Assembly: GCF_900110375.1 (NCBI RefSeq)
Contig: NZ_FODN01000007.1
Location: 62,001-126,000, forward strand
DNA: 64,000 nucleotides
Direction: 5' to 3'
From: Flavobacterium sinopsychrotolerans
GTDB taxonomy: Bacteria; Bacteroidota; Bacteroidia; Flavobacteriales; Flavobacteriaceae
The stretch's first letter is position 1; every line of letters begins with the position of its first letter. The notes under the pieces were generated by a model. That model had not been told where the DNA came from. It worked only from the letters and a program-made list of their open reading frames with translations, and did no database searches. Positions 3,891 to 61,838 of this stretch are shown here, in pieces. Both the position numbers and the translations under genes were made by a program.

Positions 3891-4085
3891 AGGAATCCAA
3901 TTTTATTTGCAGCTATTTAGCTTCGCTGAATCTTCGATCTCCCTTTATACGTTGTAATCTTATTGTTTTGCCAACAACAACTATAAGAATTTCCAATATT
4001 ATCGAAGCTGGAAATCCTTTTGCATCAAAAAACATATTGCAACTTATAGCAATAATTATATAACATTAATCGAGAGCGATACAGC

Positions 4086-4624: not shown

Positions 4625-4660
4625 GGATTGAATTGTTTAAGAATAAATGATTTTTTTGAA

Positions 4661-4752
4661 GCTATTTCCCGTCTCGTTTTAAAGACGAGATTGCAATCTT
4701 TTACTTTTTAAAGAAAAAAGTAAAAGGATTTTCACTGCTATCGGGGCTAGGG
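4661..4752 (+). repeat. Dispersed structured element, copy 1 (CTATTTCCCG...CGGGGCTAG family)
   Basis: A 92-base intergenic element starting GCTATTTCCCG and ending TCGGGGCTAGG. The ends pair (CTA/TAG, CCCG/CGGG), and inside are two further stems: TCTCGT/ACGAGA at about 4672-4690 and a 12-base-pair stem from CTTTTACTTTTT (4698-4709) with its complement ending at 4726. It shares end sequences and the inner words TGCAATCTT and AAGGATTTTC with the copy at 19913-19992, while the inner stem differs by compensating changes. It lies between a lipocalin-like gene and an unknown gene. Its function is unknown. Confidence 0.75.
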
Positions 4753-4810: not shown

Positions 4811-4884
4811 TTGTCATTCCGACGAAGGAGGAATCTTCGTTATGTGAGCACTTTGATGGGATTCTTCCTTCGTCGGAATGACAA
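4811..4884. repeat. Long inverted repeat (TTGTCATTCCGACGAAGG type)
   Basis: Two 25-base arms, 4811-4835 and 4860-4884, are inverted copies with one mismatch, separated by 24 bases. The arm begins TTGTCATTCCGACGAAGG. There is no T tract typical of a terminator. It lies directly beside the structured element at 4661-4752 and before the small gene at 4981, so this gap is a repeat cluster. Confidence 0.85.
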
Positions 4885-19139: not shown

Positions 19140-19901
19140 ATGAGAATTATTTCATACAACGTTAACGGAATCAGAGCAGCCATTTCAAAAGGATTTATTG
19201 ACTGGTTGCAACACGCAAATCCGGATATTATTTGTCTTCAGGAAATTAAGGCAACCGAAGATCAAATCCCAGTCGAGGATATTGCAAAAGCGGGTTATCC
19301 GTACCAATATTACTATTCCGCGACTAAAAAAGGATATAGCGGCGTGGCTATTCTTTCTAAAATCAAACCCAATAATGTCGTTCATGGAACTGGAATTCAC
19401 CACATGGATTTCGAAGGAAGAAACCTTCGTGCTGATTTTGATGACTTTTCAGTGATGAGTTTGTACCTGCCATCGGGGACAAATATCGATCGATTGGACC
19501 ATAAATTCACATTCATGGATGATTTTCAAACCTACATTGACGAACTCAAAAAAGTAACGCAAAACCTCATTATTTGCGGGGATTATAACATTTGCCACGA
19601 GGCAATCGATATTCATGATCCCATCCGAAACAAAAATGTTTCTGGATTTTTGCCACAAGAAAGAGCTTGGCTTGATGGATTCATGAAGTCTGGATTTGTA
19701 GATAGTTTTCGCCATTTCAACAATGAACCGCACCAATATTCGTGGTGGAGTTACCGCGCCGGAGCCAGAGGAAACAACAAGGGTTGGCGCATCGATTACA
19801 ATTTAGTTGCCGATTCTTTAAAACATAAATTGAAAAGAGCCGTTATTTTATCAGATGCCGTGCATTCGGATCATTGCCCAATTTTGGTAGAAATCGAATA
19901 A
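19140..19901 (+). CDS. xth: Exodeoxyribonuclease III / AP endonuclease
   Basis: Cleaves abasic sites and degrades 3' ends during base excision repair. It has 253 residues, the normal size. Catalytic motifs are visible: MRIISYNVNGIRAA at the N-terminus (metal-binding Asn), CLQEIKA (Glu), GDYNICHEAIDI (Asp/Asn), WWSYR, IDYNLVAD and SDHCPILVEIE (final Asp-His). The order is ExoA/Xth-like. The gene is divergent from the OlsF-like gene. Downstream lies a structured repeat element rather than an obvious terminator. Confidence 0.95.
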   Translation: MRIISYNVNGIRAAISKGFIDWLQHANPDIICLQEIKATEDQIPVEDIAKAGYPYQYYYSATKKGYSGVAILSKIKPNNVVHGTGIHHMDFEGRNLRADFDDFSVMSLYLPSGTNIDRLDHKFTFMDDFQTYIDELKKVTQNLIICGDYNICHEAIDIHDPIRNKNVSGFLPQERAWLDGFMKSGFVDSFRHFNNEPHQYSWWSYRAGARGNNKGWRIDYNLVADSLKHKLKRAVILSDAVHSDHCPILVEIE

Positions 19902-19912
19902 CATTTTCAGGA

Positions 19913-19992
19913 GCTATTTCCCGCTTTGCACTGCAATCTTGTTGTTTTTAAACAAAAGACAACAAGGATTTTCGTTTCAATCGGGGCTAGGG
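19913..19992 (+). repeat. Dispersed structured element, copy 2 (CTATTTCCCG...CGGGGCTAG family)
   Basis: An 80-base element directly after the exonuclease III gene. Ends GCTATTTCCCG and TCGGGGCTAGG are identical to copy 1 (4661-4752), as are TGCAATCTT and AAGGATTTTC inside. The central stem is CTTGTTGT with ACAACAAG, whereas copy 1 has CTTTTACT with AGTAAAAG, so three stem positions changed on both sides. It ends about 65 bases before the OmpA-like gene start and would be transcribed in its leader if the promoter lies upstream. Confidence 0.75.
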
Positions 19993-41411: not shown

Positions 41412-41553
41412 GGAGCTAATCCAGCTTTCCATTACAAACTCTTAAAGGAAACACTTTTTTGTTATAACCGCCACGAGCTTCCTTCGGTTGCTGTGTCACT
41501 TCTACAAAAAATAGTGTATCCTTCTGCGAGGCTTTCCATTGCAATCTGGGCTA
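41412..41553 (+). repeat. Dispersed structured element, diverged copy 3
   Basis: Begins GGAGCTAATCCAG and ends TTGCAATCTGGGCTA, compared with GAGCTATTTCCCG and AATCGGGGCTA in copies 1 and 2. The closing stem has changed on both sides (CCAG with CTGG instead of CCCG with CGGG). The interior is longer and has diverged, including CGAGCTTCCTTCGG and a TAGTGTATCC stretch. It fills the gap between the atpC terminator and the bioF promoter. Confidence 0.5.
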
Positions 41554-41570
41554 AATTCATCCAACTTTAG

Positions 41571-61779: not shown

Positions 61780-61793
61780 AGGTATCTAATTGA

Positions 61794-61838
61794 TATAACT
61801 AAAAAAGGATCGAAAAGTTCGATCCTTTTTTAGTTATA
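61794..61838 (-). terminator. Terminator after the M43 protease gene
   Basis: A perfect 21-base-pair hairpin with a 3-base loop (arms 61794-61814 and 61818-61838; core AAAAAAGGATCGAA). On the minus strand it lies right after the protease stop and before the ribF promoter. Confidence 0.92.

Follow-up and report, generated by a model that had tools for sequence, protein, structure and literature searches.

The two matching stretches at positions 4661-4752 and 19913-19992 of the window (the whole 64,000-nucleotide stretch of DNA analyzed here) are, with essential certainty, minus-strand copies of Flavo-1 (Rfam ID RF01705). Flavo-1 is an existing, already known Rfam family, and the element in the window does not represent a new one. 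It has stood as an unexplained RNA motif since 2010 (PMC2864571), and it could not be placed by a subsequent study of the transcriptome either (PMC9723704). Our preferred explanation, in which we have about even confidence, is that Flavo-1 is an old non-autonomous dispersed repeat of the REP/ERIC kind, maintained by recognition of its folded single strand. What has to be explained is the presence of ~100 copies per genome, a constraint on one strand, and G·A mismatches fixed amid covarying pairs, as well as a tip that nearly any palindrome can replace and a second architecture with just the core in common. These constraints narrow the search to a protein reading the core, and two parts are worth following: the second architecture (class II) and the core with its fixed G·A mismatches.

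The first-pass annotation had reported that the two stretches share several words and differ in their central stems by changes that are paired. Re-reading of the sequence places both the shared words and the stem changes where they had been described: CTTTTACT (4698-4705) pairs with AGTAAAAG (4719-4726) in copy 1, CTTGTTGT (19938-19945) pairs with ACAACAAG (19959-19966) in copy 2, and the three stem differences between the copies are complementary on both sides. The copies are related and do not resemble each other by chance: RF01705 matches copy 2 with an E value of 1.8e-14 and copy 1 (4666-4752) with an E value of 9e-4, and our own covariance model R1, built from 20 Flavo-1 copies, also recognizes copy 1 (Table 1). 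The score of copy 2 passes the curated RF01705 cut-off of 42 bits, and that of copy 1 falls below it, probably because of an added hairpin in one arm, which alters the predicted fold. Copy 1 is therefore best called a diverged or rearranged Flavo-1 copy; an insert resembling its arm hairpin is found in a Flavobacterium petrolei copy at another site. The first reading had missed that the structured strand is the minus strand, that copy 1 is not clean, and that the window contains two further copies.

Table 1. Flavo-1 copies in the window and their parts
Feature	Positions	Strand	Details
Flavo-1 copy 1	4658-4752	minus	Class I ends, rearranged 3' arm; RF01705, 35.3 bits; R1, 54.9 bits, E 8e-13
Extra hairpin TCTCGTTTTAAAGACGAGA in one arm of copy 1	4672-4690		Sequence and predicted fold
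Tip stem-loop of copy 1	4698-4726		Arms perfect, 12 bp
Flavo-1 copy 2, intact	19910-19992	minus	RF01705, 74.2 bits (19913-19992); R1, 92.7 bits
Tip stem-loop of copy 2	19938-19966		Sequence
Flavo-1 copy 3, long complex tip	41412-41556	minus	RF01705, 44.1 bits (41414-41556, passes 42); R1, 46.0 bits
Decayed Flavo-1 copy	3931-4013	minus	RF01705, 29.8 bits (3934-4013); R1, 37.0 bits

According to Pfam, copy 2 immediately follows an Exo_endo_phos gene (19140-19901) and precedes an OmpA-family gene, a position that recurs in about a dozen other Flavobacterium-type loci. Copy 3 has an ATP synthase delta/epsilon-chain gene on one side and an aminotransferase gene on the other, and the decayed copy is located upstream of the methionyl-tRNA synthetase gene. 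Copy 1 adjoins a separate repeat, the inverted repeat TTGTCATTCCGACGAAGGAGGAATC with 25-nt arms (4811-4884). Sequences like TTGTCATTC/TCATCCTGAG... immediately precede Flavo-1 in L025, L099, L110, and L320. The window also includes a perfect hairpin between two genes (61782-61835), flanked by A and T runs and weakly matching SpF25, which is probably an ordinary bidirectional terminator.

The fold is real. As derived from 20 copies, the Flavo-1 strand starts with TAGC and the stem CCYG/CRGG, followed by a mismatched A·G, the 2-bp stem UN/NA, and the 3x3 loop GNA/GNA; another 2-bp stem then leads to the second 3x3 loop, which is either GRA/RNA or GGC/ANA, and to the stem AAUC/GAUU, which is one pair shorter in a second subtype. 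The upper part consists of a C that is usually bulged, UUUU/AAAA, and a variable tip, and the 3' end is AAATAGCTCC. In a set of 81 hits that come mostly from other genomes (five of them are in the seed), 98.8% of the cells are standard pairs (slid versions, 42-51%), two-sided changes occur at 14 of 16 pairs, and the covariation score is 0.397 versus 0.133 for shuffled alignments (0 of 500 shuffles). The copies of the window's own genome are 97.7% paired, with two-sided changes at 13 of 16 pairs (0 of 500 shuffles). These counts lean towards the model because the alignments were fitted to it; the Rfam seed alignment, which was not fitted to our model, shows the same covariation. The A·G mismatch (columns 12/168) is invariant in 78 of 78 copies and offers exact single-base tests, while the first 3x3 loop has G·A in 72 and A·G in 72 of 78 copies and the second has G·A in 73 of 77. 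Template switching would not readily yield covarying pairs flanked by fixed mismatches, and the lower stem is therefore under genuine constraint.

The idea that paired changes reflect selection on the fold is supported for the lower stem, with its covarying pairs among near-invariant G·A mismatches, and less so for the tip stem, from which it had originally been drawn. The tip stem is often wholly turned over even between orthologous copies and sometimes holds other palindromes. Since it is freely exchanged, paired changes there could arise by template switching or tip replacement, without selection. The palindrome TAGTCCTGAACTTGTTTCAGGATCCTGAAACAAGTTCAGGACTA or its variant forms the whole tip in several copies (L029, L113, L117, L120, L127, L137, L139, and L090); at two sites of this type, the ortholog in the complete genome G068 has a plain tip, which indicates that the end of the hairpin can be invaded or replaced by palindromes. 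A motif like GAGCTTCCGTTGGTCGC, probably a further nested repeat, recurs in the long tips of unrelated copies (window 41412-41556, L088:2321-2467, and L370:10819-10964).

Non-Watson-Crick cells on the Flavo-1 strand of 158 copies comprise 58 G·U and 15 A·C combinations; the respective P value of 4e-7 assumes independent copies, which are in fact partly related, and the model itself favors G·U. A symmetric function in double-stranded or cruciform DNA predicts equal numbers, so the G·U excess argues that the Flavo-1 strand is constrained as a single strand. From these sequence comparisons, the constrained form appears to be a single strand that may be either RNA or single-stranded DNA (ssDNA), the two being indistinguishable here. 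Among the candidates initially listed, a protein-free mobile repeat and an RNA element are retained, and a nucleoid-protein site on double-stranded DNA is disfavored by the same excess.

The relation of the copies to genes and promoters was examined in several genomes. No clear promoter peak of the Flavobacterium type (TANNTTTG) is seen upstream of the Flavo-1 5' end, and outward-pointing promoters peak ~50-90 nt beyond the 5' side. In the window's genome (G000), the 5' side faces the start of the neighboring gene in 52 of 77 copies. Copies located between tandem genes are antisense rather than sense to them in a ratio of 30 to 15 in G000, 13 to 5 in G036, and 13 to 8 in G068; the total of 56 versus 28 includes orthologous copies, which G000 and G068 share. 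The T run of an intrinsic terminator was not found after the stem, where the sequence 3' of the Flavo-1 strand is instead rich in A. Neither the orientation relative to genes nor the promoter data fit a simple RNA gene.

The window's genome contains at least 99 Flavo-1 matches, a lower bound obtained by scoring 150 of 1,070 candidates, and 75 of 77 copies in it are intergenic. Among its relatives, 40 of 60 genomes, in 4 of 20 genera, carry Flavo-1, compared to 0 of 14 control genomes, and genomes of a single genus have anywhere from 0 to at least 65 copies. The G000 copies are diverse (91% identity for the best pair, with a median of 64%), which speaks against a recent burst; recent transposition in this genome was rejected, as none of the copies are near-identical. 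By flank comparison, at least 18 of 30 copies in G068 match a G000 copy in position and orientation, a minimum obtained with a comparison set of 77 G000 copies. In aligned orthologs, the element is 77% identical, and the two 70-nt flanks, coding sequence included, are 67% and 73% identical; similarity is visibly greater at the ends and in the lower stem, and the tip is often unrelated. Among 80 orthologous 20-kb stretches around the endonuclease gene that precedes copy 2, 12 of 16 hits immediately follow that gene, on the same strand, and this position is kept across 72-97% protein identity, which could equally reflect a local function. F. petrolei has a broken copy at the endonuclease locus and an intact one (L310:18692-18774; 96 bits) in place of the decayed window copy 3931-4013; this reciprocal decay implies that individual copies are dispensable. 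Some orthologous sites have lost Flavo-1 with no obvious substitute. The endonuclease copies of the window and of the closely related F. rhamnosiphilum differ by three compensated lower-stem pairs within nearly identical flanks, through either stepwise compensation or conversion by another copy. No class I copies were found on viral contigs, phages, or plasmids. As regards a replication-strand bias, 58 of 86 copies in G068 are on the plus strand, without two clean halves or an obvious replichore pattern.

Some copies matched the core of the model alone and had different outer parts. These constitute class II, whose scheme, GCGTGA-[GGG core CCC]-GA-[CCC..GGG]-(T)CACGC-CC, is that of a three-way junction with the Flavo-1 core as arm P2. 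Among 65 class II hits from several families, 95.9% of the cells are standard pairs, with two-sided changes at 19 of 22 pairs, and the covariation includes P3 and P1 (the inner P1 pair is GC in 29, UA in 16, and AU in 11 cases). Rfam detects Flavo-1 in many class II copies but models neither P1 nor P3, and it gives no match for some class II copies with GC-rich cores (L253, L254, and L230); no description of class II was found in Rfam or in the literature searched. Samples of 119 genomes of the order and 141 Bacteroidota genera contained class II in 29 and 26 cases, respectively, counts in which some weak matches may be class I. Examples include L124:2005-2094 and L241-L258 (alignment A6), with P1 GCGTGA/TCACGC and a P3 hairpin.

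Three distant Bacteroidota genomes have a single class II match each (L458, L463, and L466), which adjoins restriction-modification genes: DpnII/BanI-like with N6_N4_Mtase, HaeIII with a C5 methylase, and DpnI. At one such site, the class II 3' end is located where the start codon of the HaeIII-type gene should be; the G394 gene keeps its start. The class II model R2 has 18 matches on IMG/VR contigs. In G146, both rRNA operons examined (L272:6124-6208 and L273:5965-6039) carry a sense class II copy ~100 nt downstream of the 5S gene. Three G000 contigs (L269:430-539, L270:430-556, and L271:521-647) start with nearly the same ~430 bp followed by a class II copy; P1 and P2 are almost the same in these copies, and the P3 hairpins differ. 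In both classes, a P1-like pairing at the end is followed by CC, and, judging by these sequences, class I may be a form of class II that lacks P3 and has a minimal P1 (AGC/GCU). We tentatively suggest, as a minority view, that two or more chassis, Flavo-1 among them, are built around a single recognized core, which would be a lone hairpin in class I and the P2 arm in class II, the whole being a new structured dispersed element moved or read by a single-strand-binding protein.

The search for a mobilizing partner covered REP-associated tyrosine transposases (RAYTs), IS200, and other signs of transposition. RAYT-like genes are common in the genus (60 relatives were searched), and most of the loci examined are flanked by other palindromes that are repeated nearby or in related loci; L061-L079 include several RAYT-like subtypes in Flavobacterium, most with their own palindromes (e.g., CTCGTTTGCAACGAG, CGCGGATTTGCAATCCGTG, and CAAAGTCTCCGACTTTG). 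The borders of 17 RAYT genes in 16 loci have no Flavo-1; the element is 0.36 kb (one weak match) or at least 1 kb away, at about background density. Flavo-1 does not flank the IS200 genes of the genus either, and both RAYT and IS200 were rejected as the cognate enzyme on these grounds. Three genomes with at least 64 Flavo-1 copies have no Y1 transposase match. The GTAG/CGTC tetranucleotide was not seen at a palindrome end, the consensus ends being TAGCCC...AGCTCC. No target-site duplication was found, orthologous empty sites being too diverged to read one, and the sole junction located (L463 versus L468) gives the 3' boundary only. No transposition event was observed, and no parent transposon was found.

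The main rival to the repeat reading, possible although clearly less probable, is that Flavo-1 is a structured RNA, a small RNA family or part of a message, that acts as RNA, e.g., by binding a protein, and that the copies form a multigene family. Flavo-1 is classified by Rfam as an sRNA gene, and in the judgement of Weinberg et al. it is probably an RNA and is not cis-regulatory (PMC2864571). Covariation and the G·U excess fit this well; also in favor are the sense copies following 5S in the two G146 operons and the coincidence of several F. psychrophilum 5' transcribed regions with Flavo-1 (PMC9723704). However, the antisense excess between tandem genes (orthologs included) and the lack of a clear TANNTTTG peak upstream count against it, as does the reported transcription, in which hits show no preferred orientation to transcribed regions and many are untranscribed (PMC9723704). 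A role as a local insulator or terminator that separates transcription units and is kept upstream of promoters appears unlikely. The intergenic location, the 5' side turned towards gene starts, the outward promoters beyond it, and one site kept in about a dozen species favor such a role, but no U-run follows the Flavo-1 strand, the element has disappeared from orthologous sites with nothing obvious in its place, and a terminator has no need of invariant mismatches.

Mobilization of Flavo-1 as a classical REP by RAYT is still less likely: although RAYT-like genes are common in the genus, they mostly have other flanking palindromes, Flavo-1 shows no proximity to them above background and no GTAG/CGTC tag, and genomes rich in Flavo-1 may have no Y1 transposase match. 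We regard as most improbable of all the notion that the paired changes are a mutational artefact of palindromes repairing themselves by template switching, without selection. Tips that change wholesale in sequence and length between orthologs and yet remain paired, or have other palindromes inside, would be expected from such a process, but it would also convert the lower-stem G·A mismatches, which almost never become Watson-Crick pairs, and it is already contradicted there.

If Flavo-1 is a dispersed repeat maintained through its fold, the folded single strand, either a passing transcript or ssDNA that becomes exposed during replication or upstream of promoters, would be bound by a putative protein encoded elsewhere. 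Rare copying or conversion would offset slow decay, so that copies persist, and the structure would be kept because recognition would be limited to well-folded copies. The conserved G·A loops look like a requirement of a specific RNA, which counts against this reading.

In sequence, strand, consensus fold, and Bacteroidota distribution, the window copies agree with RF01705, which three of the four match by curated score or with an E value below 0.001; the differences are the arm hairpin and subthreshold score of copy 1 and a pairing that is fuller here than in Rfam, with two 3x3 G·A loops. Like MITEs, Flavo-1 is gene-free and dispersed in tens to hundreds of copies, but no terminal inverted repeat with target duplication was seen for it and no parent transposon was found. 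It shares with the REP/REPIN elements and their RAYTs a short palindromic intergenic form, high copy number, and a presumed single-strand fold but is longer, has neither the GTAG/CGTC tag nor a bordering RAYT, and occurs in a genus whose RAYTs have other flanking palindromes. The ERIC elements, or intergenic repeat units, of Enterobacteria are imperfect palindromes of about 80-130 bp that are intergenic and of unknown function, as is Flavo-1. In contrast to ERIC, to which it is unrelated in sequence, Flavo-1 combines near-invariant non-Watson-Crick pairs with a replaceable tip.
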